Shown one piece after another: positions 49 through 19,869 of a stretch of DNA of 39,103 nt. Position numbers and translations under genes: made by a program. The notes under the pieces were generated by a model. The model saw only the letters and a program-made list of their open reading frames with translations. It had not been told where the DNA came from and did no database searches. This DNA comes from a virus. The stretch is taken from positions 1-39,103 of IMG/VR virus record IMGVR_UViG_3300043446_000315; one strand, 5' to 3'. Numbering within the stretch: the stretch's first letter is position 1; each line of letters starts with the position of its first letter.

Positions 49-477
49 CTACATCAAATGAGTGGCTACTGCGCCCTCATAGTCTTCAATGCTGAATGTG
101 ATTACACCATCTTTGGTGTAGTGTTCGCACTTTCCCTGTCTTTCTAGCCCTGTTTTATGGCTATGACATTCTAGGCATAGACTCTGCATTATGTTGCGCG
201 TAAACGCCCTAAATCCAATCTGCTTCCAAGGGAACACATGGTCTACATGGTTAGCGTTTTCTATACGCCCACGCAGTAAACACGCCTGACACAATGGCTG
301 GCGACTTAACTGCACCGCTCTTATCTTGCGCCATTGATTAGTAGAGTAACTGTTATCAGAATCCTTATGCTCAGTATGGTTAAGCCCACCATGCGCCATA
401 CAAAATGTATTCAGTTTAGACCGTGGTTCTTTGCATCCTAAATGAGCGCACTTAGTCTGTCTGGGTACAGTAGGCAT
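49..477 (-). CDS. HNH endonuclease
   Basis: Predicted HNH homing-type or packaging-associated endonuclease, 142 residues. Zinc-ligand cysteine pairs (CQAC near 63-66, CLEC near 101-104) frame the HVDH motif (77-80) and the final HSHKT (105-109), the classic HNH layout. I chose the ATG at 477, which overlaps the upstream stop as TAATG; a TTG at 501 would add 8 residues but lacks a ribosome binding site. In HK97-like phages an HNH protein is usually encoded just before the terminase genes and stimulates cos or pac cleavage by the large terminase. Here the small terminase starts at the opposite edge of the window, so the two are neighbours if the genome closes. The fold is clear; the packaging role is inferred from position. 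Confidence 0.88.
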   Translation of the reverse strand: MPTVPRQTKCAHLGCKEPRSKLNTFCMAHGGLNHTEHKDSDNSYSTNQWRKIRAVQLSRQPLCQACLLRGRIENANHVDHVFPWKQIGFRAFTRNIMQSLCLECHSHKTGLERQGKCEHYTKDGVITFSIEDYEGAVATHLM

Positions 478-995
478 TACTTTTCTAGTACGGGTTTCCA
501 ACTATTACCGAAACCAGCCTGTCTGCGTTCTGCTTGGTCTGGCATACCAGCCCTGTCTACTAGGCGGTCTACCTCTTCATCTTCCATACCGAGGCGCGAC
601 TGTATTTCTTCTTTACTTACGCCATCTGCCACAATGCCACGCACAATATTAGCCATAGGCACAATGCCATGCGTACCACGCGCTCTGTTATGTCTGATAG
701 TACTCATTTGCCGATGCACGGGGTCTATGTCTACCACCACAATCGGAACTTGACCCTTAAATCTGTCCATTAATCTTTTGTCTTTGCTTACCGTGTAGCG
801 ATGGAAACCATCCACGATAGTGCCATCTGGTAGCGTAACAATGGGCTGTGTCCACCCATCTTCCAGAATAGAAATAATCAACAATTCTAATTCTGGTGGC
901 GCAACCTTATTAGGGTTGTAGTCATTGGGTTTCAATGTTTCACGGGAAACCCACTTAACATTGCTTATAGGTTGTGTTTTAGTATCGTGTGCCAT
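477..995 (-). CDS. ParB/Srx-domain protein, IbrB-like
   Basis: ParB-like N-terminal domain protein of 172 residues. Visible signatures are the early YNPN turn, the LEDGWTQPI strand-turn (44-52) and DGFHRY (62-67), the nucleotide-binding box of the ParB/sulfiredoxin superfamily. The remainder is helical and charged, with no clear HTH. It overlaps the PAPS-reductase-like gene upstream by 17 nt. A DUF3440 PAPS reductase next to a ParB-like protein is the arrangement of the E. coli prophage pair ibrA/ibrB, regulators of immunoglobulin-binding protein genes, so this is most likely an IbrB-like partner. The biochemical activity of such pairs is not settled. Chromosome partitioning is unlikely because there is no ParA. 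Confidence 0.8.
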   Translation of the reverse strand: MAHDTKTQPISNVKWVSRETLKPNDYNPNKVAPPELELLIISILEDGWTQPIVTLPDGTIVDGFHRYTVSKDKRLMDRFKGQVPIVVVDIDPVHRQMSTIRHNRARGTHGIVPMANIVRGIVADGVSKEEIQSRLGMEDEEVDRLVDRAGMPDQAERRQAGFGNSWKPVLEK

Positions 996-2166
996 AGTCT
1001 TCCTGTGTTACATCTTCCAAGGAAATGCCTAAACTTTTACGCGAGGTAACTGCTTTGCTGTGAATCCCGCCCTTGCGTCTGCCTTTTAAATCTGCACGGT
1101 TGGCAATCATTGCAAGCGTTTTCCAATTAAGCCCTGTCTGCAAATCTGGTTCTGTCTCATGTATTGGGCGGTTAGTCTTTGATTGATGCAATTTAATGAG
1201 CGTTGCAATATTTCCAGAAACTATTTTTTTTAGGTCTTTGGGATATAAGTCAAGTAATGCGTATGTCCATGTTTTCCAAGTCATGCCCTCTGGTAGCGTC
1301 AATTTACCAAAGCCATACAGTTCTGTATTTGCATAGCGACCAGCCGTTGCCGCACCGTGTACGCGACCAATCATTTTGTGCCACAAGTCTTGCCAGCATT
1401 GGGCATATATCCATAAACCACGCAACGGCTCTTCACCGTATGGCGGACATACGCGCTGTATATTGGGCGGTACTCCAGCCATAGCCATCAAATCATAAGA
1501 ACGGTTATAGTCCCATCCAAACATCCTTGGTGCAGTCCATACATCAAAGGTTGTCCAATCGTATATAGGACTGACAGGGTAGTTGTACCCCGCCCTTGGT
1601 GCGCTAATCCAATTATTTTTGCTACGCTGTGCAACGCTCTGGTAGCGTCTAAGCGATTCATCTGCGCGGATGCCACGCACATCGGCAACAGACCCGCATT
1701 CTGGACCATAAACCATGTGCGCTATGTCAGGCACACTATCGCCCATTTTAAAGCCCTCAATGTGCGTCACCACGCAATCAAATGTTGGCATAGGGCGAAC
1801 CCATTTATCTTTTTTTGTCTCATCCCAACAATACCAATATGGCTCTTTGCGTGAGCAAGCATTTCTATGCTTAATCTGTACGCATAGCCATTTAAGCCTT
1901 ACCTCTGGCAAACGCATCACGCGCTCTACATACTCAATGGTTTCTGGATGTATAGCCTCTTCATCCCAAAAATAAACATCTAAAGGCAATTTATTTTTTT
2001 CTTTAGCAATTTGTAAGGCTAGATTTAGGCAAACTGTTGAATCTTTACCGCCACTAAAAGAAACAACAACTTTATCGAAATTGTCAAACAAATATCTAAA
2101 CCGTTCTAGCGCGGCTTCATAGACATTGATTTCCTCTACAAATTGTTTTTTTAATATGCGACTCAT
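979..2166 (-). CDS. PAPS reductase-family protein, IbrA-like (DUF3440)
   Basis: Member of the phosphoadenosine-phosphosulfate reductase / PP-loop ATPase family, 395 residues. The PP-loop SGGKDST is at 38-44, after a helix, in a VVVSF strand. The middle and C-terminal parts carry the long DUF3440-type extension (for example RGIRADES, then PPYGEEPLRGLW). It lies between a periplasmic binding-protein gene (ATGA overlap upstream) and a ParB-like gene (17-nt overlap downstream), so it is translated from a coupled operon. The family includes true sulfate-assimilation enzymes, DndC-like DNA phosphorothioation proteins and the prophage regulator IbrA; length and ParB partner favour IbrA. Whether it modifies DNA, tRNA or another target cannot be read from sequence. 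Confidence 0.85.
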   Translation of the reverse strand: MSRILKKQFVEEINVYEAALERFRYLFDNFDKVVVSFSGGKDSTVCLNLALQIAKEKNKLPLDVYFWDEEAIHPETIEYVERVMRLPEVRLKWLCVQIKHRNACSRKEPYWYCWDETKKDKWVRPMPTFDCVVTHIEGFKMGDSVPDIAHMVYGPECGSVADVRGIRADESLRRYQSVAQRSKNNWISAPRAGYNYPVSPIYDWTTFDVWTAPRMFGWDYNRSYDLMAMAGVPPNIQRVCPPYGEEPLRGLWIYAQCWQDLWHKMIGRVHGAATAGRYANTELYGFGKLTLPEGMTWKTWTYALLDLYPKDLKKIVSGNIATLIKLHQSKTNRPIHETEPDLQTGLNWKTLAMIANRADLKGRRKGGIHSKAVTSRKSLGISLEDVTQEDYGTRY

Positions 2167-2993
2167 TTAATTTTGTATTTTTCTTGTTCTTGCACAACAA
2201 AATCAGCAAATTGTTTTCTTGACATGATTTTTTGGTTATAACCCTGTGTTTTAAGCCAATCCTTGGTGCTCGGGTCTTTTAATATTTTGCTGATTTCGCT
2301 ATGCCAGTAATCAAGTATTTCTGGGCTTGTGCCTTTAGGTGCAAACAATCCCCACCACAATTGGTCAGTTGTAGTTGTAGGTATAACTTTAATTTTTAGT
2401 GAATTCATCCATGTCTTGGCTACTGGTTCTGGTGAGTAGGCAATGCTTGTTTCATTTATAAGCACCGATTGCAAGGCTGGCGCACCGCCTTTATACGGTA
2501 CATGGATTGTCTCGTAGCCCTTGAGCAACTGCGCCATCAGCAAATCAGCAACAGAACCAATCCCATCTGATGCATAAGTAACCGTGTTTTTGCTTGCATA
2601 GGCTTTTAATTCTTCAACGGTGTTGGGCGCAAATGCTGGGTTAGCAATTAATACTTCTTTTGCCGTAGCGACAATCACGATTGCATCCAAATTCCAATTA
2701 ACCGTCATAGGCGGTGTCATGTATGCCCCGACATTTATTGCATTTGGCGTTACATGACCCATAAGCAAGGTTTTACCATCTGGTGCAGATTTGGCAACAA
2801 AATCAGTACCAATCATTCCAGATGCGCCAGCCCTGTTGTCTATATAAATTTTGCCATCTAGTTTTGATTCTAGGTATCTAGCAATGATGTCTGTACCACC
2901 GCCCACAGGATATGCAACAACAACCCTCACAGGCTGTGCATTTGCAAACAATGAAAATAATAATCCTAAAAATATAAATGCAAACTTAAGCAT
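2163..2993 (-). CDS. Bug/TctC-family periplasmic solute-binding protein
   Basis: Tripartite tricarboxylate transporter receptor of the Bug (TctC) family, 276 residues. It starts with a signal peptide: MLKF, a hydrophobic stretch and a probable SPase I site ANA|Q near residue 19, with no lipobox cysteine. Family motifs follow in order: AYPVGGGTDIIAR (27-39), DNRAGASG (52-59), PDGKTLLMG (71-79), then VPYKGGAPAL and LFAPKGTSPEIL. Bug proteins are usually about 320 residues; this one is shorter mainly in the loop before LWWGLFAPKG and at the C-terminus, yet the core looks intact. A strong AAGGAG sits 7 nt before the ATG inside the ParB gene. It probably binds a small organic acid outside the inner membrane. 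A phage-borne copy is unusual. Confidence 0.92.
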   Translation of the reverse strand: MLKFAFIFLGLLFSLFANAQPVRVVVAYPVGGGTDIIARYLESKLDGKIYIDNRAGASGMIGTDFVAKSAPDGKTLLMGHVTPNAINVGAYMTPPMTVNWNLDAIVIVATAKEVLIANPAFAPNTVEELKAYASKNTVTYASDGIGSVADLLMAQLLKGYETIHVPYKGGAPALQSVLINETSIAYSPEPVAKTWMNSLKIKVIPTTTTDQLWWGLFAPKGTSPEILDYWHSEISKILKDPSTKDWLKTQGYNQKIMSRKQFADFVVQEQEKYKIK

Positions 2994-3621
2994 CTAAATA
3001 CTCCTTACATATAACCCAAATTGCTTGCCCGCTAGTGTCCAAAAAATTATCTTGCTTGGCTTTACGTAATGCTTTAAACACGACCTCGCGCTGGTCATGG
3101 TCTAGCATCAAAGATAGCGGATACATTTCTTGTTCTGGTTTTTCTTTGATTACAGTTGGCTTGTCGCTCATATCCTCATCATCTTCAGCCATGCCATCTA
3201 GCCTTGCCAAATCTTTGTCATCCTCAAATCTGGATAAGTCATCAGCACTAAACCCTAGTATGCCAATATCTATATCGGTAGACATTAAGTAATCTAATTC
3301 TTCACCTAACATCTGTATATCCCACTCGCTATTTAAAGCAATTTTATTGTCGGCAATGATGTAGGCGCGTTTTTCATCATCGCTCAAATGGGTGAGGTCT
3401 ATGGTTGGGACTTCTAGCAGATTTAGGTGTTTAGCGGCTTCATATCGCCCGTGTCCAGCGATTATTTCATTATTGCCATCTAGCAATATGGGAGCATTAA
3501 AGCCAAATTTTTCTATGCTTTTGGCTATTTGGGATATTTGGTTTTCGCTGTGTTTACGCGAATTTTTGGCGTATGGCGTTAAGTCTTTGATTTTTTTGTA
3601 TTGTATTTTCAGTTTTGTCAT
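2986..3621 (-). CDS. ParB-like nuclease domain protein
   Basis: A second ParB-superfamily protein, 211 residues from the ATG at 3621, chosen because AAGGA lies just upstream; an upstream ATG at 3642 has none. Motifs: LTPYAKNSRKHS (14-25), then GFNAPILLDG and IIAGHGRYEAAK (53-64), followed by DNKIALNSEW (91-100). This is the ParB domain that in many phages is fused or adjacent to DNA modification methylases; no methylase is seen here. The middle is very acidic (about 135-155). The reading frame ends within the start of the Bug/TctC gene and carries that gene's ribosome binding site. A nucleotide-dependent or DNA-modification role is likely; the substrate is unknown. Confidence 0.82.
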   Translation of the reverse strand: MTKLKIQYKKIKDLTPYAKNSRKHSENQISQIAKSIEKFGFNAPILLDGNNEIIAGHGRYEAAKHLNLLEVPTIDLTHLSDDEKRAYIIADNKIALNSEWDIQMLGEELDYLMSTDIDIGILGFSADDLSRFEDDKDLARLDGMAEDDEDMSDKPTVIKEKPEQEMYPLSLMLDHDQREVVFKALRKAKQDNFLDTSGQAIWVICKEYLDA

Positions 3622-3736
3622 TTTCCTTATATCCATGTGCATAGGCGGCTCGCGCCACCGCTAACGCTTTGGCTTTAGTTGGGAATGGACCTTTGCTTCC
3701 CCACATCCAGCCGCCCTTTGTATGTCTTAATGGCAT
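3554..3736 (-). CDS. small basic phage protein, unknown function
   Basis: A 60-residue protein starting GGWMWGSKGPF after MPLRHTK and followed by a helix rich in Ala and Lys (TKAKALAVARAAYAHGY). It begins in a TAATG overlap with the gene upstream and overlaps the ParB-like gene by about 68 nt. Small proteins with a WxWGSKGPF-type start and an Ala-rich helix look like a recurrent phage type, but I cannot name a function. The overlapping start and the amino-acid composition support it being real. Confidence 0.65.
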   Translation of the reverse strand: MPLRHTKGGWMWGSKGPFPTKAKALAVARAAYAHGYKENDKTENTIQKNQRLNAIRQKFA

Positions 3737-4143
3737 TACTTTAGAAATCTTAACTTATAAAGTGTACTGTCAATCAAACTTGCAATTTCATCTGTGATGT
3801 TTTGCAATTCTGTGTCTTGCGGAAAGTTGTACTCATTACGCAAAACCATGACCTCATCTTTTAAGTATGTTAAGTATTCTAATGCGCTTTTGGGCGGTAG
3901 CGCATAATCGGCAATAAAATCATGCAATAACCCATATTTGCCTTGAAATGCTTCTACAAAATTATCCACTAAATCGCCAATTTCTGTATAAAACGATTCA
4001 AGTGCTTTATGTTCTGAGTAACTCTGCGTTGTCAAATGCAGAATGTGGGCATTTGTAACGCTGTGCAATAAGCACATGGTAAACACCATAACAGGGTCAG
4101 ATGTAGGTTGTTGGGCTTCTATGCTTGCTCTGAATTTAACCAT
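3736..4143 (-). CDS. DUF5856/Dps-like helical protein
   Basis: A 135-residue, almost fully helical protein. The segment AHILHLTTQSYSEHKALE followed by FYTEIGDLVDNFVEAFQG resembles the His/Glu/Asp pattern of the phage DUF5856 family, which is related to ferritin/Dps four-helix bundles. AGGGGTG lies 7 nt before the ATG. If the ferritin-like relation holds it may bind metal or DNA and protect phage DNA, but the metal ligands are not certain by eye. Located in the early operon between a YbcO-like nuclease and a small basic protein. Confidence 0.62.
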   Translation of the reverse strand: MVKFRASIEAQQPTSDPVMVFTMCLLHSVTNAHILHLTTQSYSEHKALESFYTEIGDLVDNFVEAFQGKYGLLHDFIADYALPPKSALEYLTYLKDEVMVLRNEYNFPQDTELQNITDEIASLIDSTLYKLRFLK

Positions 4144-6070: not shown

Positions 6071-6414
6071 GTGTTCTTCTCCTTGAGTTGAGTCATCGCA
6101 AAAACAACCCCAGCACGCCATGCGTGTGCAGTTTGTAGCGCGTAGTCGGAGCGCAGTAAGCCTTGTTCTATGTCCTCATCCGTCAGCCCTACCCATGTGC
6201 GTTGTTGTGGTGTGGTGTAGAGAGGTGTTTCTTTTAAAAACACATAGTCACATGTAATGTGCCCACCAAGCGCCCACGCCACAGGCTCTTGCTTCTCTGC
6301 CTCTGCGATGGCTTGGCGTAGGGATGTGATGGCTTCATTTTGATAACGCCAAAAATCGTCTTTACCAGCGTCTTCCAACGCCTCAAGTGCCTGTTTCATT
6401 GCTTCTATGCTCAT
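6067..6414 (-). CDS. conserved early phage protein, unknown function
   Basis: 115 residues. Composition is typical of a widespread phage/metagenome protein: an N-terminal helix MKQALEALEDAGK, a QEPVAWALGG strand, PLYTTPQQRTWVGLTDEDI, and a terminal helix. Proteins with EPVAW...PLYTTP...WVGLTDEEI occur in many phages of Proteobacteria but have no assigned activity. Both ends show ATGA overlaps (start at 6414 with the upstream stop, stop at 6067 with the downstream ATG), so it is part of the coupled early operon. Confidence 0.72.
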   Translation of the reverse strand: MSIEAMKQALEALEDAGKDDFWRYQNEAITSLRQAIAEAEKQEPVAWALGGHITCDYVFLKETPLYTTPQQRTWVGLTDEDIEQGLLRSDYALQTAHAWRAGVVFAMTQLKEKNT

Positions 6415-6658
6415 TTTTTAATTCCTTGATTTTTTTTGCAATCGAGATACCTAGACCAGCCCACTCTTTCTCTAATTGGCGTGTCATATAACGCGCATGG
6501 TCTATTGAACCTTTGTTCATCGCCATCAACGCATAATGTTGGACTAGATGCTCTCTCATGTTGGCATAGTTTGGTAATGTCTCCTGTTGCTTGTAAGGCT
6601 TCAATTGTGAGAGCCACGGGCATGGCTTTACCTCTTTTGCATCTGTCAAGTATTTCAT
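6383..6658 (-). CDS. overlapping frame of hypothetical protein (likely true C-terminus)
   Basis: 91 codons from an ATG at 6658, overlapping 6411-6677 in a different frame. From about residue 30 it reads as a plausible soluble helical protein: ANMREHLVQHYALMAMNKG, HARYMTRQLEKEWAGLG and IAKKIKELKNE. The N-terminal 25 residues are less convincing and have no ribosome binding site. The stop lies 32 nt inside the next gene. I favour a single gene whose N-terminus is in the other frame and C-terminus here; comparison with relatives would settle it. Confidence 0.45.
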   Translation of the reverse strand: MKYLTDAKEVKPCPWLSQLKPYKQQETLPNYANMREHLVQHYALMAMNKGSIDHARYMTRQLEKEWAGLGISIAKKIKELKNEHRSNETGT

Positions 6659-6677
6659 GCGCTTGTAATCTATCCAT
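6411..6677 (-). CDS. hypothetical protein, possibly frameshifted
   Basis: 88 residues, starting in a TAATG overlap at 6677 and ending in an ATGA overlap at 6414-6411, so the context of both ends supports translation. The first 33 residues (MDRLQAHEILDRCKRGKAMP, then a helix ending ATGD) look like a phage protein start. After that the composition becomes unlike a protein (HERASSPTLC, many Ser, Cys, Arg), while another frame (6383-6658) reads like a normal helical protein. Either two genes overlap, or one gene spans 6383-6677 with a frameshift near 6570-6600. Confidence 0.5.
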   Translation of the reverse strand: MDRLQAHEILDRCKRGKAMPVALTIEALQATGDITKLCQHERASSPTLCVDGDEQRFNRPCALYDTPIRERVGWSRYLDCKKNQGIKK

Positions 6678-6907
6678 TAAAAAGCATCCTTATTCCACCA
6701 TTGCGGTTCTTTCGGTTCATTCGGTAACAGGGCGGCTACATCTTTTATCGGGGTTGGCGTGTCGCTTGCCCATGCGTGTTTTGAACACATAGGTCGCCCC
6801 ATATCCACAGTCCAGCGTTTGCCACAACCCGCTACGGTGCATAGTAGTTTTCTCAAACCATCATCCTCTGGCTCTGATTTTCGTTGCAGTTGATTTTTAA
6901 ATGACAT
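6677..6907 (-). CDS. small zinc-finger-like protein
   Basis: 76 residues from the ATG at 6907 (AAGG 5 nt upstream inside the previous gene; a GTG at 6913 is an alternative). The motif CTVAGCGKRWTVDMGRPMC followed by SKH gives a C-x4-C...C-x2-H zinc-site pattern. A charged N-terminus and a Pro/Trp-rich C-terminus (PKEPQWWNKDAF) flank it. Proteins of this kind follow DUF1376/DnaT-like replication proteins in many phages, with unknown function. Overlaps the neighbours on both sides, consistent with coupled translation. Confidence 0.68.
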   Translation of the reverse strand: MSFKNQLQRKSEPEDDGLRKLLCTVAGCGKRWTVDMGRPMCSKHAWASDTPTPIKDVAALLPNEPKEPQWWNKDAF

Positions 6908-6909
6908 TT

Positions 6910-7677
6910 TCACCTTCCATTATCGTAATGACCTTCGACCACTTTTAAAAAATTTGTCGGCAATATAAGCCAATCTAGGCTTGCCTTCCAAACGCGCCCG
7001 TTCTTGTTCTGGGTTCTACCGCACAAAAAATCAGACTTGTTTACGCGCTCAAAAAAAGATTTAAATATTTCTATGCCTTCGTACTTATCAGCAAACTTAT
7101 CAGTAGCGTAGACCTCGCGCCATCGGCTAACCAAATGCTTGCGCCTATTGCCATTCAGCATCATGGCTCTAGGCAAGGATTGGCATTGCGTATGGTAGAG
7201 ATTTAGCAATTCATCTGCTGGACATGGTATGCGGTCAATAACTGACTTGTCAGTTTTGACAAGCACCGTAGGTGCTATATCTAATGGTTCTTGGTTTATG
7301 GTTAGTGGTTCTTGTTTAGGGTTATTTTGGGTTAAGTCTGGGTTTCCCGTGGGTTTCTCTTGGGTTTTTTTAGGTCTGCCACCCTTACTGCCATTGGCTT
7401 TCTGTCTCGCCATGTATTCGTGATAACTGGCAATTTCTAAATCTGCTCTGTGATTTTTATAACCGTCATCTGTCAGCGTAAAAAATTCATCAAGCACCGT
7501 CTTTACTACTTGAGAATCCAGCCGTAACCTACGGGCTACCCGTGGAATATCCTTGGGTATTGGTTGCTCTGAATCGTAGTAAAAATCAAGAAGTCTGCGA
7601 TATGCCAAATCTTCCATAAGAGAAAGATGTAGCGTGTTTTTGATGTAATCACCAATGTTGAATTGGTAGTAGTGCAT
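6910..7677 (-). CDS. DUF1376 replication-initiation-like protein
   Basis: 255 residues with an N-terminal DUF1376 domain: MHYYQFNIGDYIKNTLHLS, then LMEDLAYRRLLDFYYDSEQP (18-37) and RLRLDSQVVKTVLDEFF. A low-complexity linker (GGRPKKTQEKPTGNPD and the following Gln/Pro/Asn-rich part, about 98-130) leads to a C-terminal domain with RKHLVSRWRE and WKASLDWLILPTNFLKVVEGHYD, resembling the C-terminal part of phage replisome organiser / DnaT-like proteins. It probably binds the origin or loads the host helicase. First long gene after the Cro-like protein. A GG-rich site (AAGGTGG) precedes the ATG. Confidence 0.8.
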   Translation of the reverse strand: MHYYQFNIGDYIKNTLHLSLMEDLAYRRLLDFYYDSEQPIPKDIPRVARRLRLDSQVVKTVLDEFFTLTDDGYKNHRADLEIASYHEYMARQKANGSKGGRPKKTQEKPTGNPDLTQNNPKQEPLTINQEPLDIAPTVLVKTDKSVIDRIPCPADELLNLYHTQCQSLPRAMMLNGNRRKHLVSRWREVYATDKFADKYEGIEIFKSFFERVNKSDFLCGRTQNKNGRVWKASLDWLILPTNFLKVVEGHYDNGR

Positions 7678-7779
7678 AAGCCACCTTGTCCATCACCTTT
7701 GAAAGAAACATCGGCAAGGGAAGGTGGTAACCCCTTTCGGTACGCTCATGACTTCGCACCTAGCCGTGTCTCAAAAATG

Positions 7780-7938
7780 TTACTCAGTAAACCATTCGGG
7801 CTTTAGCAATCTTAATTGCCATTCCCGTGCCTTGGGTACATTCTCGCCCCATTGGGCTACTGCGGCTTGCGTGATGCCGAGCAGTTTTGCCAATTGAACG
7901 CCTGAACCCGCTAGTCTGATTGCGTCTTGTGTTTTCAT
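7780..7938 (-). CDS. Cro/YdaS-like HTH transcriptional regulator
   Basis: Translated by hand: 52 residues. It reads MKTQDAIRLAGSGVQLAKLL, then GITQAAVAQWGENVPKAREW: a helix-turn-helix with the recognition pattern GSGVQLAKLLGITQAAVAQWG (residues 11-31), typical of the YdaS/Cro group (for example xxAAALGVSQPAVSxW). As first gene of the minus-strand early operon facing a divergent plus-strand operon it is the expected Cro-type switch protein. No Shine-Dalgarno is visible before the ATG and a TATACT hexamer ends about 8 nt upstream, so the message may be leaderless. Operator-like repeats lie at 7993-8021. Confidence 0.85.
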   Translation of the reverse strand: MKTQDAIRLAGSGVQLAKLLGITQAAVAQWGENVPKAREWQLRLLKPEWFTE

Positions 7939-7945
7939 GGGCGAG

Positions 7946-7951
7946 AGTATA
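7946..7951 (-). promoter_or_regulatory. putative -10 element for the minus-strand early operon
   Basis: TATACT on the minus strand, seven bases before the ATG at 7938. A start of transcription 7-8 nt downstream would fall at or beside the A of that ATG and give a leaderless message, as lambda PRM does for cI. The matching -35 (around TGTACT, 18 nt further up) is weak, so this promoter may need an activator. Confidence 0.4.
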
Positions 7952-7992
7952 AACGGGCTTAGTGGCTGAAGTACAGGCTTTTTTAATGTAAT

Positions 7993-8021
7993 ACCTCTGT
8001 TTTCAGTAATTTAAACCTCTG
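7993..8021. promoter_or_regulatory. operator-like repeats in the divergent control region
   Basis: ACCTCTG occurs at 7993-7999 and again at 8015-8021, start-to-start 22 bp, i.e. two helical turns. Each is followed by an A/T run, and CTGTTTTCAG (7997-8006) is itself a CTG/CAG palindrome and near-inverted to CTGAAAACC (8019-8027). The position between divergent operons fits binding by the adjacent Cro-like protein. Inference from symmetry and position only. Confidence 0.45.
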
Positions 8022-8060
8022 AAAACCACAGCAATATAAATCTGGCTAATACCCCCCAAG

Positions 8061-8089
8061 TTGTAACGGGTATTAAGTTGGCTTATACT
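8061..8089 (+). promoter_or_regulatory. promoter of the amidoligase operon
   Basis: TTGTAA (8061-8066), 17-bp spacer, TATACT (8084-8089): 4/6 and 5/6 matches to sigma70 boxes with optimal spacing. The spacer and -10 contain TTAAGTTGGCTTAT (8073-8086), which matches the near-palindrome at the DUF932 promoter. Transcription would start near 8096, just ahead of a short hairpin and 40 nt before the amidoligase ATG. Confidence 0.65.
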
Positions 8090-8098
8090 GCCCCCATG

Positions 8099-8118
8099 CC
8101 GTAACGAAACGGTCTTTT
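8099..8118 (+). promoter_or_regulatory. leader hairpin with U-tract, copy 1
   Basis: CCGT-AACGAA-ACGG stem-loop followed directly by TCTTTT, placed between promoter 8061-8089 and the ribosome binding site AAGGAG. The same order (GCCC..., hairpin, GGTCTTTT, AAGG, ATG) recurs at 9677 and 10743. The stem is short (4 bp), so it is at best a weak terminator; it may cap the 5' end or act as an attenuator. Confidence 0.5.
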
Positions 8119-8137
8119 AAACCCAAGGAGAGTAATC

Positions 8138-8926
8138 ATGACAACAGTAGGCAAATTCGGAATCGAACTAGAGTGCTTTAATGTGGAGATGAGTACAGTA
8201 GTAGGAATGCTCAGAAGCATCGGATTAAATACATATTCATCTGGATATAGCGGTCGCCAATACAGCGTTTGGCAAGTCAAGTCTGACTGCTCAATCCAAG
8301 GCGTAAACGGTTTTGAGGTTGTCAGCCCCATACTTGAGGGCGAGGCTGGTTTGGCAGATGTTCAAAAAGTTTGCGATGCCTTAGTCAGTTTGGGCGCACA
8401 AGTCAACAAGTCTTGCGGTTTCCACATCCACCACGATGCAACTGGCTGGGGCATCCAAAAATTCCGCAACCTCTTCAAGCGTTTCATCAAGTTTGAAACT
8501 GCCCTCGACAGCATCCAACCAGAATCCCGTCGTGGCAACGCTAACCGCTACTGCGGTTCAATCATCAAGACTTTTGCAGAAATCGACAAATGCAACACGC
8601 TCAACAAATTGTCTGAGTTGTACGGTAACAGCCGTTACTACAAACTCAATCTGCAATCATTCTTCCGCCAAAACTCTGTCGAGTTCCGCAACCACGCTGG
8701 TACGGTAGATGCTGAAAAAGTCATCAACTACATCCGTCTGACAAGCGCAATGGTGGCTGATGCTGATGACAAGACTGCCGTGCAAAACTTCACAAAACCT
8801 ACAACCGCCAAAGAATCCCTCGACACAATGCTCGCTGGCATGGTTCGCAGAAACCGCATAGCACCCAGAATCGCCAAGTTTTACAAAGCCCGTCAAGTTA
8901 AGTTTGCACAAGGAGTAACAGCATGA
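8138..8926 (+). CDS. amidoligase (glutamine-synthetase-like COOH-NH2 ligase)
   Basis: Putative amidoligase (PF12224 type), 262 residues. Signature motifs: KFGIELECF (6-14), GFEVVSPIL (58-66), CGFHIHHD (93-100) and VEFRNHAGT (181-189), which supply the acidic, His and Arg residues for Mg-ATP and the acyl phosphate in this glutamine-synthetase-like fold. These enzymes are predicted to form amide or peptide bonds between a carboxylate and an amine. A strong AAGGAGAG lies 8 nt upstream. The small gene after it overlaps by ATGA, and a gamma-glutamylcyclotransferase follows, a partnership noted before for phage and bacterial amidoligases. Substrate unknown: a peptide tag, cell wall or nucleotide side chain are possible. 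Confidence 0.87.
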   Translation: MTTVGKFGIELECFNVEMSTVVGMLRSIGLNTYSSGYSGRQYSVWQVKSDCSIQGVNGFEVVSPILEGEAGLADVQKVCDALVSLGAQVNKSCGFHIHHDATGWGIQKFRNLFKRFIKFETALDSIQPESRRGNANRYCGSIIKTFAEIDKCNTLNKLSELYGNSRYYKLNLQSFFRQNSVEFRNHAGTVDAEKVINYIRLTSAMVADADDKTAVQNFTKPTTAKESLDTMLAGMVRRNRIAPRIAKFYKARQVKFAQGVTA

Positions 8927-9171
8927 CAAAAAAAATCTATCTATTTAGCGGTGGCGGTTTCGTCATCGCATCTAACCCTGACGAGTTTGTAGACAAAATG
9001 AACAAATCTAGTCTTTTCGGCAGTAGCGACTCCGCGCAAGATTTCATGACAAATGTCTCTACGCGCTGTGCGTTACAGAATGGCTCCAAGATTAGCACCC
9101 TCACCCCCGAGTGGTTTCTTGAAGACCTCATATCTGCCGAGTTTGTGACCGCCATACCCCTCAACTATTGA
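8923..9171 (+). CDS. 82-residue protein between amidoligase and GGCT
   Basis: 82 residues, ATGA overlap with the amidoligase and AAGGAG upstream. The sequence starts MTKKIYLFSGGGFVIASNPD, continues with a Ser/Asn-rich helix and DFMTNVSTRCALQNG, and ends PEWFLEDLISAEFVTAIPLNY. No family recognised. Given its tight coupling between a ligase and a gamma-glutamyl cleaving enzyme, it could be the protein substrate or a specificity subunit, but nothing in the sequence proves this. Confidence 0.75.
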   Translation: MTKKIYLFSGGGFVIASNPDEFVDKMNKSSLFGSSDSAQDFMTNVSTRCALQNGSKISTLTPEWFLEDLISAEFVTAIPLNY

Positions 9172-9181
9172 AAGTGTAATC

Positions 9182-9649
9182 ATGTACGAATCTGAAATTC
9201 TTTATTGCGCCTACGGCAGTAATCTTAATCACGACCAAATGGCTTATAGATGCCCCAATGCGGTGTTTGTAGGCACGGGCGTAGTGCCTAACTATCGTTT
9301 AGTATTTCGTGGTGTCGCTGACATTGAATGGGCGCGTGGTCAGCAAGTCCATGTAGGCTTATGGCGCGTGACCGACCAATGCGTAAATGCTCTTGACCGC
9401 TATGAGGGCTACCCACACTTGTACGAGCGCGGGGGCATCGAGGTCATTATGTCTGGCAAAAAGAAACCGCGCACCGTTGAAACATTTTTCTATTACATGA
9501 ATTCTGGTGGTTATGCCGAACCAAGTACAGGCTATTTGAAATCTATTGCAGATGGATATGTAGACTGTGGTTTGCCACTTGAAGACCTAACTAAAGCCAT
9601 AACGCAAACCGAGAGGCTTTATTGGGAACAGCATGAGTTGACCGCATAA
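9182..9649 (+). CDS. gamma-glutamylcyclotransferase-like (AIG2/GGCT)
   Basis: GGCT/AIG2-family protein, 155 residues. The nucleotide-free substrate loop YGSNLNHDQM (11-20) and the catalytic glutamate in LDRYEGYPHLYER (71-83, Glu75) are both present, with the beta-barrel strand WRVTDQCVNALD between. The family releases 5-oxoproline from gamma-glutamyl amines or peptides. Beside an amidoligase it could reverse or edit the ligase product. Only a weak ribosome binding site (GAAAGTG) precedes the ATG, 10 nt after the preceding gene. The promoter for the next gene begins inside its last codons. Confidence 0.9.
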   Translation: MYESEILYCAYGSNLNHDQMAYRCPNAVFVGTGVVPNYRLVFRGVADIEWARGQQVHVGLWRVTDQCVNALDRYEGYPHLYERGGIEVIMSGKKKPRTVETFFYYMNSGGYAEPSTGYLKSIADGYVDCGLPLEDLTKAITQTERLYWEQHELTA

Positions 9650-9667
9650 GTTGACTTATCTTATAAT
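9638..9667 (+). promoter_or_regulatory. promoter of the DUF932 gene
   Basis: TTGACC (9638-9643), 18-bp spacer, TATAAT (9662-9667): near-consensus sigma70 promoter. The -35 box lies in the last codons of the GGCT gene. The spacer contains the 14-bp near-palindrome ATAAGTTGACTTAT, positioned to occlude polymerase when bound. Confidence 0.75.
9646..9659. promoter_or_regulatory. operator-like palindrome in the DUF932 promoter spacer
   Basis: ATAAGTTGACTTAT is a perfect inverted repeat (ATAAGT / ACTTAT) around a 2-bp centre. A close copy, TTAAGTTGGCTTAT, lies at 8073-8086 in the equivalent place of the amidoligase promoter, and a looser one (TTAGTAGGCTTAT) at 10719-10731. Likely a common regulator binding site; the Cro-like protein is the obvious candidate. 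Confidence 0.5.
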
Positions 9668-9676
9668 TTAACCACG

Positions 9677-9696
9677 CCCCTATTTCGGGGTCTTTT
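9677..9696 (+). promoter_or_regulatory. leader hairpin with U-tract, copy 2
   Basis: CCCC-TATTTC-GGGG followed by TCTTTT, between promoter 9638-9667 and the ribosome binding site AAAGGAGAG of the DUF932 gene. Same layout as the copies at 8099 and 10743. Confidence 0.55.
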
Positions 9697-9710
9697 AAAG
9701 GAGAGTAAAA

Positions 9711-10682
9711 ATGTCGCATGAAATTGAAACCAACCAAATTACGGGTAGCCGTGAGATTGCATTTGTAGGCGATACGCCTTGGCATGGCTTGGGTCAGCAA
9801 TTAACCAAAGATGCGCCCATCGATGTATGGCGCAGAGAAGCGGGGCTAGATTGGACTGCTCAGAGTGCCAAAGTAGCATTTCAGCCATCACCCGAACAGC
9901 CGTACCAAGAGATAAACAACAAAGTTGTAATATTTCGCAATGACACATTTGCGCCACTAGGCGTTGTAACTGAAAAATACAAGATACATCAGCCAAACGA
10001 AGTATTAGAGTTTTTCAATACGCTGGTGCAATCTGCTGGTTTTTCGCTAGAGGTTGCGGGTGCAATTAAGGGCGGTAAACGCATCTGGGCATTGGCTAAT
10101 GTCAACAAAGAAGCGGTAGTGCTACATGATGATGCTGTGCGCGGTTATCTGTTACTAAGCACCTCATTTGATGGCTCTACGGCAACCATTGGGCAATTCA
10201 CTAGCATCCGAGTAGTCTGCAATAACACGCTGTCTGCGGCTGATGCTGAAGACGCGCCAAGTCGCGTAAACCTCACCCACGGCTCGACCTTTGACGCAAG
10301 TCTGATGCGTGAGCGTTTAGGCTTGGTTGTCTCAGGCTTCGAAGGCATGATGGATAAATACCGCGCACTTGCACGGGCTGGAGTAGGCGAGAACTACGCC
10401 AAGACATTTGCCGACAAACTTTTCCCACCCGCCTATAACCACCAACTCAACGCATACAAGCCATCACGGGGCTTTAAGCGCGTAATGGAGTTATTTGATG
10501 GTGCTGGTATGGGCGCATCAAATCACGGGGTTTATGGCACTAAATGGGGTCTGCTCAATGCCGTCACGCAATACATAGACCATGAGCGCGGACACAATGT
10601 CGATACCCGCATGAACAATGCATGGTTTGGGCAAGGCAACCGCATCAAAGCACAAGCAGAGGAACTGCTATTGGCTAATTAA
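9711..10682 (+). CDS. DUF932 phage/plasmid-like protein
   Basis: 323 residues with the features of the DUF932 / TIGR03299 family: PWHGLGQQL near 23-31, ALGVVTEKY-like segment (FAPLGVVTEKYKIHQP), KGGKRIWALA and SIRVVCNNTL, and the late WGLLNAVTQYIDHERGH. The family is common in phages and plasmids that infect Proteobacteria and actinobacteria; its role is unknown, though it is often an abundant early protein. It has its own strong promoter, leader hairpin and AAAGGAGAG site, suggesting high independent expression. A 13-bp inverted repeat follows the stop. Confidence 0.86.
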   Translation: MSHEIETNQITGSREIAFVGDTPWHGLGQQLTKDAPIDVWRREAGLDWTAQSAKVAFQPSPEQPYQEINNKVVIFRNDTFAPLGVVTEKYKIHQPNEVLEFFNTLVQSAGFSLEVAGAIKGGKRIWALANVNKEAVVLHDDAVRGYLLLSTSFDGSTATIGQFTSIRVVCNNTLSAADAEDAPSRVNLTHGSTFDASLMRERLGLVVSGFEGMMDKYRALARAGVGENYAKTFADKLFPPAYNHQLNAYKPSRGFKRVMELFDGAGMGASNHGVYGTKWGLLNAVTQYIDHERGHNVDTRMNNAWFGQGNRIKAQAEELLLAN

Positions 10683-15489: not shown

Positions 15490-15918
15490 TCAAAGACACT
15501 TAAATACTTCATGCGCTGGCACAAAAGTTTCCTTATTGTGGTCATACGCTTCCCACCACAGGAATTGATTGTTTACCAGATACTTACGGTCTTTAAGTAG
15601 GTTTATATTTTCTGGATGCCCGTATATCAAAGGGTCGCTGACTGACCATAGCACAATGCCTTTCTTGCCCTCTATCCAGCCTAGATGCTGGAAAAAACTG
15701 TCGCATGAAATCCATGTACGGCACTCGCGCAATAGTTCTTTAAGTTGGCTTATCGGCAAGCCTTTTCTAAAATCAGGCACTAATTGCTTTTCGCCTTCAA
15801 CGCCTATTTGCACAATAGGTTCTTTAATCATGCTTATTAATTCTTCCCAAAATGGATAGTTTTTTGGGTTTTCTTTTCCATTGTTTAACTGGCGCGAGTA
15901 TGGGGAAATAATAATCAT
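15490..15918 (-). CDS. GT9-like C-terminal half-domain (split glycosyltransferase)
   Basis: 142 residues, ATGA overlap with the preceding fusion gene. It matches the nucleotide-sugar-binding half of family 9 (heptosyltransferase-like) enzymes: IIISPYSRQLNNGKENPKNY, WEELISMI...PIVQIGVEGE, then LKELLRECRTWISCDSFFQH, the position of the family's SNDTGxxH motif, and GKKGIVLWSVSDPLIYGHP. The N-terminal half of the fold is missing here but is present at the C-terminus of the upstream protein (GLGDHIVFSKVLPKI). The two probably form one enzyme. Confidence 0.78.
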   Translation of the reverse strand: MIIISPYSRQLNNGKENPKNYPFWEELISMIKEPIVQIGVEGEKQLVPDFRKGLPISQLKELLRECRTWISCDSFFQHLGWIEGKKGIVLWSVSDPLIYGHPENINLLKDRKYLVNNQFLWWEAYDHNKETFVPAHEVFKCL

Positions 15919-17486
15919 AAATACATCTTTTCAAATGCTTTTTCCAGACTGTCTGTCCATTTCCATTTGTCCATTTGGGCATAGATATTCCATTGTTCTA
16001 GGCTACCAAATCTAGCCCTAGCCTCTGCAATAGATAAACCTTCTACTACCTCTGGATAGCAAGTAAACACAATAGGATTTTTAATTTTAGGCAAAACCTT
16101 GGAAAACACAATATGGTCACCCAGACCACAATTAAGGACAACTATTGTCTTGTCTTTAAACTTTACATGATTGCGGAAAATCTGCTCATCATGTTCATAC
16201 ATTTCACGGTTTGTTTCGCTTCTAATACCGCCATTAGGATTTTTCAAATGCCAGCAAATAGCATTGCTGACTGCATATATGTCATAGCCCTTTTGATACA
16301 ACCCATAGGTAAATAGCGTTTCCTCTCTATGCGCGACCCGTGACAGTTCTAGGTTGTAATCATGGACACCAGCCCGATACAGAAATGAACAATGCAAATG
16401 CTCTACTTTTTTATATCCATCAATCATTCCCCATTGAATGTTAGGTTCTAGGTCTATCAAATCTACCGTGCCAGATACCCGCGATGTGTCCATGATTGGC
16501 GGGGTAAGGATAGAGCCACCTACCGCGCCCACATTTTCAAAAAAGGTTGTGAATGTGTATAAACGCGCAAGCACATTGGGTTCTGGGATTGCATCATCAT
16601 CTACGCGCCAAACCCATTCATATCCCATGCTATTAGCCATTTGATGGATATGATGCTGACCCTTTTTGCCAGCGTAAATCCATTCCCACGCTATACCTTT
16701 TATGTCTAGCATCTGGAAAAAATGCGCGTATATAAGTTCGTTCCGCATATCTTGCGGTTCGTCATTGTCATCAAAGATAATTAACTTATCTACTTGCTGT
16801 GTCTGGTTAATAATTGCTTGTAATGTCAACGGCAAAGTTGTGAAATATCGACCTCGCGTAGCCACAGAGCAAAGCACTTTTTCTTTTTTTTCCCATTTAG
16901 CAATCATTAGATTAAATCGGTTAGTTTCGTTAATAGGTTGTACGCGCTGAGTTATATTACCGTTTTCTGCTATGTATTCAAACTTAAAGCCTTTAAAGTG
17001 GCTTTCGTTTAAACCGTGCAGTTTGTGATGCTCACCCCAAAAACCTTTAGGTTCATTCCAAGGACAAGTAATTAAAAGCACTTTGCAATGCTGTTGCAGT
17101 TTTTTGACAATTTCTAATCCATTGTCTAAATGCTCTATGACTTCAAAGGCAATGATGGTGTCGTATTGCTCTAGTTCAAATGTGTTTATGTCAGCATGGA
17201 TAAATTGATTATTGCCATTCCACCCTTGTTCTTTGGCAACTTTAATGATTCTGGAATCGTAATCTAAACCCGTGTAATCTATATCTGGCAAAAACTGTCT
17301 GCCGTAGCCATTAGAGCAACCAACTTCTAAGACTTTTTTGCCGTAGATATGTTGGTTAGCCCATTCATAGCGTTGCTTTTCACGGGGATAAACAGCATCT
17401 CCTTTTAGAAATACCGCCCTTTCATAGTTGTTCATTAACTCTAATATCTTGTCTTGTTGCGTCATGTTATCGTGGATACACGGCAT
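15915..17486 (-). CDS. methyltransferase-GT2-GT9(N) fusion protein
   Basis: 523 residues, three domains. (1) SAM methyltransferase, about 1-195: KVLEVGCSNGYG (51-62) and IIAFEVIEHL (111-120). (2) Family 2 glycosyltransferase, about 200-435: VLCSVATRGR (204-213), FDDNDEP (238-244), metal motif VDDDA (295-299) and HREET (386-390). (3) N-terminal half of a GT9 fold, 445-523, with GLGDHIV (454-460). The GT9 second half is the next gene, coupled by ATGA. The ATG at 17486 has AAGG upstream; 17465 is an alternative. It probably builds or caps a sugar on the virion (the Ser/Tyr-rich fibres are adjacent) or on the host surface. Confidence 0.85.
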   Translation of the reverse strand: MPCIHDNMTQQDKILELMNNYERAVFLKGDAVYPREKQRYEWANQHIYGKKVLEVGCSNGYGRQFLPDIDYTGLDYDSRIIKVAKEQGWNGNNQFIHADINTFELEQYDTIIAFEVIEHLDNGLEIVKKLQQHCKVLLITCPWNEPKGFWGEHHKLHGLNESHFKGFKFEYIAENGNITQRVQPINETNRFNLMIAKWEKKEKVLCSVATRGRYFTTLPLTLQAIINQTQQVDKLIIFDDNDEPQDMRNELIYAHFFQMLDIKGIAWEWIYAGKKGQHHIHQMANSMGYEWVWRVDDDAIPEPNVLARLYTFTTFFENVGAVGGSILTPPIMDTSRVSGTVDLIDLEPNIQWGMIDGYKKVEHLHCSFLYRAGVHDYNLELSRVAHREETLFTYGLYQKGYDIYAVSNAICWHLKNPNGGIRSETNREMYEHDEQIFRNHVKFKDKTIVVLNCGLGDHIVFSKVLPKIKNPIVFTCYPEVVEGLSIAEARARFGSLEQWNIYAQMDKWKWTDSLEKAFEKMYL

Positions 17487-19869
17487 CCACCCTTGTATTA
17501 ACTGCTAGTCCTGTGCCAAACACAATAGATGTTCCGCTTGTCACAGTTACATCTGTGCCGTTTACCATTTTTACACCATTAACAAACACTTGTATTTTTC
17601 CTGATGTGTAAGAAAGTGAAGTTGTAAATGTTGTTTGTGATGCTGTGGCTGTAAACGAATCATAAATCATGCCAGTAGCAGAACCAGAATATCCTGAATA
17701 GCCTGAAAATCCTGATGTACCTACTGCACCAGAATAACCAGAATATCCGCTTACGCCTGAACCAGAGTAACCTGAATAACCACTAAATCCGCTTGTTCCA
17801 GTTGCGCCATTAATGCCTGAATACCCAGAGTAACCAGATGTGCCGACAGCACCGCTATATCCTGAATATCCACTTGTGCCTTGTGCGCCTGTTGCCCCGC
17901 TATAACCAGAAATACCTGATGCACCATTGATGCCTGAGTATCCAGAATAGCCACTTGCACCAGTAGCACCTACCGCGCCCGAATATCCAGAATAGCCACT
18001 TATGCCTGTTGCGCCATTTTGTCCAGAATATCCGCTATAACCACTTGCGCCTGTTGCACCCACAGCACCAGAATATCCAGAGTAACCGCTTGTGCCTACT
18101 GCACCAGAGTAACCAGAGTAACCTGATGCCCCTGTTGCACCTACTGCACCTGAATAGCCCGAATACCCACTTGTGCCACTAGCACCGTTTAAACCCGAAT
18201 AACCAGAGTATCCAGACGCACCAGTAGCACCAACTGCACCTGAGTAGCCACTAATGCCAGAATAGCCACTTATGCCACTAAAACCGCTATAACCGCTCTG
18301 CGTGTACATCACTTGCGTAGCAGTAACAATCACAGACGGGATTGCTGGTGCGGGGCTAGATGCAACGGCTGATTGCAATACTAAATGGACATTATTTGTT
18401 GACCACATTAATTCAAGATAGTCACCAGAGTTTAATTTCATTACAAAATTAGCCGCGCCCAACACAAACACCGCGCTATTTGTAATGCTTATCTTGCTAT
18501 CTGTGTCTGGCACATTTGTGCCGTTTTTGCGTAGCCAAATGTTTATATCTGTGCCTGAACCACCGCCACCCGTATCTGTGGCTTGCACAGAAAATTGGAT
18601 GTTATAAACACCCGTAACATCAAAATTAATGTGTGATGTGGATGATATGTTTACGCCAACAGAATCCGCATCTGTTGTAGGCAGAGCAATAGGATAGGCT
18701 GTATTTATTGCGGGTGCAGTAATGGTGTTACTGTTCCAAAAAGAACCCCAATTACCCTGTGCGCCCCCTACACCAGCCGCGCCCGATTGCCCCGAATATC
18801 CGCTATATCCTGAGATTCCAGAATAACCACTATACCCAGATGTGCCACTACCAGAAAATCCAGATATACCAGACCAACCTGAGTAACCAGACCAACCAGA
18901 AATGCCACTACCTGAGTAACCAGAAAATCCGCTATACCCAGAAATTCCAGACCATCCGCTAAAGCCTGATACACCAGAACCTGAATATCCGCTTGTGCCT
19001 GATTGTCCAACCGCACCACTAAATCCAGAAATACCGCTATACCCTGAAATACCAGAGTAGCCGCTAAATCCAGAAATACCTGATTGTCCAGATGGTCCAA
19101 CAATTTGACCAACATCATTCCATGTTGTGCCTGTCCAAACATAAAGATCACCATCCGAATCCACAATGTATGCGTCATTGGGATTGTTGCCAACCAAAGG
19201 CAATAGGGCTGGATTAGCCACAGAGCCTTTTATGTTTATGGATGTGCCTTGCTGTCCAGAGTATCCAGAAAAGCCCGAATAGCCACTAATCCCAGAGCCT
19301 GAGTACCCAGAATAACCTGATACACCAGACCCAGAATAGCCACTAATACCAGACCAGCCTGAAAACCCAGAATAGCCTGATATGCCACTACCAGAATAAC
19401 CAGAAATTCCAGAAAACCCGCTTATGCCCGACCAACCACTAAATCCAGAAATACCAGAACCAGAGTAACCGCTAATTCCAGAACCGCTATATCCAGAATA
19501 ACCTGATTGCCCACTATATCCAGAGTAACCAGAGGTAGATGCACCGCTTAATCCACTAAAGCCAGAATATCCAGAATATCCAGAATAACCTATTCCAGAA
19601 TAACCAGAATAACCAGAATAACCGCTAACCCCAGAACCTGAAAATCCTGAGTAACCACTAAAGCCTGAGTAACCGCTATAACCACTTCCACCTATAAATC
19701 CATCTTGACCAGAATACCCACTAAAACCTGAATAACCTGATTGACCACTATACCCAGAAATTCCCTGTGGTCCATATAGCCCTCTATCAATGTTAATAGT
19801 TTGCGTTGGTACTGGTGTAACTTCTACATTAATGTTGTTGTCGTTTACGACTGTGACTTGTATAGACAT
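17467..19869 (-). CDS. collagen-like tail fibre with C1q-like domain
   Basis: 800 residues. After a 30-residue N-terminal part (tail attachment, IQVTVVNDNNINVEVTPVP) come three blocks of Gly-X-Y triplets dominated by Gly-Tyr-Ser, Gly-Phe-Ser and Gly-Ile-Ser (about 34-205, 259-365, 530-725), with almost no proline. Between blocks 1 and 2 lies a compact domain (NPNDAYIVDSDGDLYVWTGT); between 2 and 3 a jelly-roll C1q/TNF-like domain (ISSTSHINFDVTGVYNIQFS ... LNSGDYLELMW). The C-terminus (ASQTTFTTSLSYTSGKIQVF, FVNG) is a usual fibre end. It should form a trimeric rod binding the host surface. Confidence 0.88.
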   Translation of the reverse strand: MSIQVTVVNDNNINVEVTPVPTQTINIDRGLYGPQGISGYSGQSGYSGFSGYSGQDGFIGGSGYSGYSGFSGYSGFSGSGVSGYSGYSGYSGIGYSGYSGYSGFSGLSGASTSGYSGYSGQSGYSGYSGSGISGYSGSGISGFSGWSGISGFSGISGYSGSGISGYSGFSGWSGISGYSGSGVSGYSGYSGSGISGYSGFSGYSGQQGTSINIKGSVANPALLPLVGNNPNDAYIVDSDGDLYVWTGTTWNDVGQIVGPSGQSGISGFSGYSGISGYSGISGFSGAVGQSGTSGYSGSGVSGFSGWSGISGYSGFSGYSGSGISGWSGYSGWSGISGFSGSGTSGYSGYSGISGYSGYSGQSGAAGVGGAQGNWGSFWNSNTITAPAINTAYPIALPTTDADSVGVNISSTSHINFDVTGVYNIQFSVQATDTGGGGSGTDINIWLRKNGTNVPDTDSKISITNSAVFVLGAANFVMKLNSGDYLELMWSTNNVHLVLQSAVASSPAPAIPSVIVTATQVMYTQSGYSGFSGISGYSGISGYSGAVGATGASGYSGYSGLNGASGTSGYSGYSGAVGATGASGYSGYSGAVGTSGYSGYSGAVGATGASGYSGYSGQNGATGISGYSGYSGAVGATGASGYSGYSGINGASGISGYSGATGAQGTSGYSGYSGAVGTSGYSGYSGINGATGTSGFSGYSGYSGSGVSGYSGYSGAVGTSGFSGYSGYSGSATGMIYDSFTATASQTTFTTSLSYTSGKIQVFVNGVKMVNGTDVTVTSGTSIVFGTGLAVNTRVDAVYPR
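17676..18300 (-). repeat. collagen-like coding repeats, block 3
   Basis: Tandem degenerate 9- to 27-nt units coding Gly-Tyr-Ser-Gly-Tyr-Ser with inserted GAVGATGAS / GINGATGTS units. The larger unit (about 14-16 residues) repeats some ten times, making this block more regular than the others and a likely site of length change by slippage or recombination. Confidence 0.8.
18776..19098 (-). repeat. collagen-like coding repeats, block 2
   Basis: Degenerate Gly-X-Ser triplet repeats (GYSG, GFSG, GWSG, GISG) between the two globular domains of the fibre. Confidence 0.78.
19250..19770 (-). repeat. collagen-like coding repeats, block 1
   Basis: Degenerate Gly-X-Ser triplet repeats near the N-terminus of the fibre, with occasional Gln/Ala positions (GQSG, GASTSG). 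Confidence 0.78.

Follow-up and report, generated by a model that had tools for sequence, protein, structure and literature searches.

A Bug gene in the window

The stretch of DNA analyzed here (the window) is the whole of an IMG/VR virus record (IMGVR_UViG_3300043446_000315; 39,103 bases) from a bona fide freshwater virus of bacteria, with a terminase, a portal, two capsid-family genes, a tape measure and tail genes. On the minus strand it carries an ATG-initiated gene for a Bug/TctC solute-binding protein, which lies between a ParB-N domain gene (ParB1) and a gene of the PAPS-reductase family (PAPS), with a second ParB-like gene (ParB2) beyond (Table 1). The Bug product matches the TctC profile PF03401 at 123.2 bits (Pfam gathering score 27) over profile positions 7–265 of 274, and its N-terminus is Sec-like, as n-, h- and c-regions and a small-x-small cleavage site are visible by inspection in the aligned phage copies. 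A first-pass annotation of this DNA had described a complete Bug protein with signal peptide and core motifs, and the description holds, every quoted motif included. At the level of sequence, a Bug/TctC-type gene with an export signal at this position is confirmed as real.

The translation signals had been read correctly as well. The ribosome binding site said to be embedded in the preceding ParB gene lies inside the end of ParB1, and its AAGGA core is conserved across all phage copies; ParB1 runs 8 bp into Bug, and the ATGA coupling of Bug to PAPS is present. Two other statements stood in part. The protein had been called about 45 residues shorter than usual, mainly in one loop; it is shorter (276 aa vs. 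a bacterial median of 317), but the loop accounts for only some of this, the largest single loss being 21 residues and the remainder small gaps and a shorter C-terminus. The label "early operon" proved approximate: Bug sits between replication/recombination genes and HNH–TerS–TerL.

Table 1. Positions of the cassette genes, of signals and sites in and around Bug, and of other genes mentioned in the text.
Feature	Position	Strand	Basis or remark
HNH endonuclease closing the cassette downstream; adjoins TerS across contig ends	49–501	-	PF01844
ParB2 (IbrB-like), overlaps PAPS	477–995	-	phrog_2159
PAPS: PAPS-reductase-family/DUF3440 (IbrA-like) PP-loop protein	979–2166	-	PF01507, PF11922, phrog_2302
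ATGA overlap, Bug stop and PAPS start coupled	2163–2166	-	sequence
Bug/TctC solute-binding protein	2163–2993	-	276 aa; PF03401 E 1.8e-35; AF2 pLDDT 93.8; Z 33 to TTT SBPs
Codon 208/209 junction, site of the 21-residue LPxVPTxxE segment present in other Bugs and missing here	2367–2372	-	alignment
Predicted Sec signal peptide MLKFAFIFLGLLFSLFANA, cleaved before Q	2937–2993	-	read from the sequence and aligned N-termini
ParB1 (ParB-N domain), 8-bp overlap with Bug	2986–3642	-	PF02195; phrog_620
Shine–Dalgarno AAGGAG for Bug, within ParB1 coding end	3001–3006	-	sequence
DUF5856 protein, conserved cassette neighbour	3736–4143	-	PF19174
Amidoligase_2 and gamma-glutamyl cyclotransferase-like pair	8138–8926, 9182–9649	+	PF12224, PF06094
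Methyltransferase-domain protein	15915–17486	-	
Collagen-repeat tail-fibre-like protein	17467–19869	-	800 aa
Tandem major-capsid-family genes	32132–33163, 33230–34579	-	PF05065

Away from the cassette, both tandem capsid-family genes occur also in the Methylophilaceae phage P19250A. The tail-fibre-like protein has extensive internal repeats, and the gene beside it encodes a methyltransferase domain followed by a weak, below-cut-off glycosyltransferase match, in a product 71% identical to that of a P19250A gene over 323 residues. Contigs L370–L449 belong to a very large phage lineage (>570 terminase relatives) in which many contigs start about 500 bases before TerL, which suggests a fixed genome end near TerS.

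Fold, pocket and phage clade

The AlphaFold2 model of the Bug protein (pLDDT 93.8) predicts a two-domain type II periplasmic-binding fold like that of solved TTT proteins. Its best structure matches are 8HKA, 7NDS and 5OEI (Z 33; next families at Z 17), and against ligand-bound (closed-form) Bug structures it aligns at Z 31–33, with an rmsd of 1.8–2.1 over about 257 residues (1.8–2.0 over 256–261 aa at Z 33). The pocket was mapped by transferring published TphC contacts (PMC8556258) through the alignment. The domain-1 loop is retained (Tyr28, Gly31, Gly32 and Asp35 of YPVGGGTD); its motif P-F-x-A-G-G-x-x-D, which coordinates the two waters, reads AYPVGGGTD, with the aromatic residue, both glycines and the aspartate present in 7/7 phages and Ala or Pro at the first position. 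Relative to TphC, four pocket positions are changed in the phage Bug (His80/Pro86, Asp143/Gln150, Pro188/Asn197 and Leu212/Thr242). Specifically, His80, Asp143 and Leu212 are found in all seven phage copies and in 0/49 bacterial ones, and Pro188 in all seven and in 1/49. The loss of pocket residues that the first-pass annotation had considered was therefore not seen: the phages keep both the pocket and its ligand loop, and where pocket positions have changed they do not vary from phage to phage. A pocket that is conserved yet different argues for a particular ligand, not decay. The 21-residue segment, kept in 49/49 bacterial copies, is absent from the aligned siphophage clade copies, present in L028 (a T4-like phage contig), and whole or nearly whole in the other phage Bugs examined; a surface used for docking could be lost with it.

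Six further contigs with Bug copies at 63–77% identity (L026, L027 and L078–L081) came from profile searches among viral contigs. The order ParB1–Bug–PAPS–ParB2 holds in every Bug contig read far enough and continues, where contigs extend, as (DUF5856)–HNH–TerS–TerL–portal, so the clade that the first-pass annotation had proposed looking for, compact, specific to phages and set among the same genes, does exist, in seven contigs. In a quick tree of 97 rows, the siphophage Bugs and that of L028 form one clade (support 100), which has a long stem and branches from within the bacterial Bugs. A model built from four phage Bugs scored no more than 208 bits against the proteins of 399 Burkholderiales genomes, and none of the genomes searched held a bacterial chromosome with a clade Bug and the same flanks. 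Among isolate phages the sole Bug match was weak and lay in an unannotated faecal contig. An assembly join or host contamination is ruled out by the same ParB–Bug–PAPS junctions in seven contigs, with no bacterial copy in the clade. Two pairs provide usable substitution estimates (L079–L081, dN 0.003/dS 0.046; L078–L026, dN 0.119/dS 1.08), the remaining pairs being near dS saturation, and the mostly synonymous changes in these unsaturated pairs indicate that the clade Bug is under purifying selection.

Exchange slot and PP-loop partners

The ParB1–PAPS junction holds different contents in related phages. In its backbone genes L437 is closer to the window (TerL 83%, TerS 86%, ParB2 85%), but here a cupin gene replaces Bug, likewise overlapping by 8 bp at its start and through ATGA at its end; a similar cupin occupies the slot in L076 (matching start, similar end junction), while in L374, where PAPS is more distant, the slot is empty. 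Among 32 related records, a good part of which are fragments, two gave a PAPS match and none a Bug match, the Bug search having no built-in positive control. As near-complete close relatives do without Bug, the gene is dispensable for the lineage, and as the slot holds Bug, cupin or nothing, with Bug missing in relatives, it is a rare, swappable accessory gene. Bug and PAPS also differ in the relationships they suggest: the window PAPS is about 75% identical to those of L078, L026 and L027, which are about 92% identical to one another, while in the Bug tree the window joins L078 and L026, with L027 left outside (support 98). For a reading of the neighbours as a defence system, the window PAPS offers only a weak PP-loop resemblance to DndC/BrxP/SspD, and ParB1 a match to the ParB-like part of a methyltransferase model.

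Bug genes were found in many other viral contigs, some >300 kb, and often beside a PP-loop gene. In the first, unbiased set, a same-strand, directly adjacent SGGxDS PP-loop gene occurred at 8/27 Bug clusters vs. 9/247 other genes (p 4e-5), and over all Bug-fetched loci at 24/67 Bug clusters vs. 44/1,076 other genes, or 4% (p 9e-15). The first set is the fairest, since the families from which subsequent Bug queries were made were themselves PP-linked, and loci fetched with a PP-loop query were excluded from these statistics because they are biased. Bacterial Bugs had no such neighbour (0/19). The junction is most often a 4-base overlap, and 14 of the 36 phage PP-loop clusters adjoin a Bug. The adjacent PP-loop proteins match essentially no Pfam family above cut-off; their SGGxDS motif is invariant in 10 sequences, and profiles match N-type ATP pyrophosphatases weakly and the PAPS genes at the motif. 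A low-confidence model (pLDDT 54), used for superfamily only, gave Foldseek matches mostly to PAPS reductase, AsnB, NadE, GMPS and LarE. In L053, L056 and L065 an AMP-binding ligase stands upstream of Bug in place of the PP-loop gene. The 337-kb phage contig L053 carries the AMP-ligase, Bug and, downstream, Rieske dioxygenase alpha and beta genes in one run (6334–10605), and phage islands in L067 (3587–8951) and L070 (2769–8891) hold two Bugs in a row with between one and three PP-loop genes. The literature searched yielded no report of a phage Bug/TctC or of a Bug/PP-loop partnership, so it is the recurrent partnership in phages that lacks a published description among those found; the protein family itself is known.

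The setting of Bug between DNA-modification-like genes, which the first-pass annotation left unexplained, is thus explained in part, by an exchange slot at the ParB1–PAPS junction and by a Bug/PP-loop pairing that recurs in phages. Such a slot might simply take up unrelated coupled genes, in which case Bug would be stand-alone cargo unrelated to PAPS. The cupin and empty versions of the slot are consistent with this, as are the >200 phage records with PAPS genes, none of which has a Bug of this clade, but a PP-loop adjacency far above background in unrelated Bug lineages speaks against it, and we consider it unlikely. In the siphophage clade itself the Bug/PAPS pairing may nonetheless be incidental, because the IbrA-like PP-loop type is common in phages without Bug.

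Proposed role, host and known systems

We propose that phages took Bug from a Burkholderiales-like source, reshaped it and kept it as an exchangeable accessory gene. During infection the protein would be translated in coupling with ParB1 and PAPS and then reach the periplasm, where it would bind a specific small molecule, probably a carboxylate, in a pocket altered from that of bacterial Bugs. Most likely it would raise uptake of this ligand through a host permease, and in other phages the coupled PP-loop enzyme would use ATP to activate the substrate (i.e., an import-and-activate pair). To this scenario as a whole—an exported phage Bug that scavenges a carboxylate in concert with import by the host and that has, in many phages, an ATP-activating enzyme as its partner—we assign a probability of roughly 45%. 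It is the most likely reading because the family does this and because PP-loop and AMP-forming ligases are enzyme kinds that activate carboxylates or similar groups. Bacterial TTT binding proteins are commonly orphans, outnumber TctAB and bind carboxylates (PMC5812351). In the window, the Amidoligase_2 gene lies near the cyclotransferase-like gene, and the pair is conserved in the Bug-bearing phages examined and unmatched in P19250A; a link to a carboxylate or glutamate ligand of Bug is possible.

No transporter genes occur among the annotated window genes, as the first-pass annotation had observed. The nearest cultured relative of the window phage is P19250A, which infects Methylopumilus, and TctC is absent from 185/187 Methylophilaceae-like genomes (assigned by hexulose-phosphate synthase and small genome size) and TctA from all 12 tested. 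A Methylophilaceae host would thus leave Bug with no known partner, and the first-pass suggestion that it feeds a host transporter is weakened for such a host; the caution of that annotation about function was justified. TctA is present in some other Burkholderiales, and a TctAB-bearing host (e.g., another small-genome member of that order) is possible. Tetranucleotide composition is split, the window lying nearest to TctC-positive genomes of 45% GC and its relatives of 38–40% GC nearest to small Methylophilaceae-like genomes. Terminase matches in bacterial genomes reach only 33–38% identity and so provide no prophage link to a host.

Two readings would dispense with import. Bug could bind a metabolite and engage a sensor of the host, in the manner of BctC and BctE, thereby altering host gene expression instead of transport. 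BctC of Bordetella is needed for signalling (PMC5812351), PBP-like sensor domains such as that of BvgS share the Bug fold, and this role works without TctAB; but no sensor gene adjoins Bug in the phage loci examined, and PP-loop and AMP-ligase genes as coupled partners suggest a metabolic role, which makes signalling rather improbable. We hold it equally improbable that Bug sequesters a periplasmic ligand or displaces host Bugs from TctAB, so that the host takes up less, or that it shields a receptor from other phages; competition with a host Bug and receptor blocking had both been raised in the first-pass annotation. The loss of a segment kept in all 49 bacterial copies tested could uncouple Bug from a permease, and most genomes of the presumed host family have no TctC and, where tested, no TctA. 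Against this, many other phage Bugs retain the segment, a sink does not predict the repeated link to activating enzymes, and no receptor-like partner was found for shielding. That Bug is a host gene, an assembly join or a neutral passenger, as the abundance of Bugs in Burkholderiales bacteria might suggest, is scarcely credible: the junctions recur in seven contigs, selection on the gene is purifying, and the clade has no bacterial member (best 208 bits).

The scavenger reading can be extended, if speculatively. In many unrelated freshwater phages, Bug and a coupled PP-loop or AMP-forming ligase may constitute a module that imports and ATP-activates a specific carboxylate, for a phage process (e.g., nucleic-acid or surface modification), with the compact siphophage clade being a version adapted to no, or an unusual, host permease; we regard this as doubtful. 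Phage metabolic enzymes are known already, but a conserved, coupled and swappable periplasmic binding protein that recurs beside ATP-pyrophosphatase-like genes in many phage groups suggests that acquiring small molecules is a strategy to which phages turn repeatedly.

Compared with known systems, the window Bug shares its fold, size class, signal peptide and loop motif with the TTT SBPs TphC/TBP (7NDS, 8HKA), AdpC (5OEI), BugD (2F5X), Bug27 (2QPQ) and MatC (6HKE), at 25–30% identity and Z 31–33. It differs from them in being phage-encoded, in missing the 21-residue segment, in its pocket residues (His80/Asp143/Pro188/Leu212) and in that no TctAB was seen in the phage. Annotations of the domain in phages already exist, as the BFVD/UniProt entries "PBP2_Bug_TTT" and "Bordetella uptake protein" of uncultured Caudovirales have a Bug fold, but these are only 13–19% identical to the window Bug and represent different lineages; no published discussion of them was found in the literature searched. 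For SUP05 phages, tctA has been described among the auxiliary genes, with a role unknown to the authors (PMC4164917); it too is a TTT component in a phage contig, but by a permease-domain match rather than as a binding protein. P19250A resembles the window phage in most structural genes (37–73% identity) and is without the ParB1–Bug–PAPS–ParB2 cassette. The L028 Bug is full-length, retains the 21-residue segment and comes from a different phage type with different neighbours, yet it is sister to the siphophage clade (46–50% identity), has the same pocket residues and likewise adjoins a PP-loop gene.
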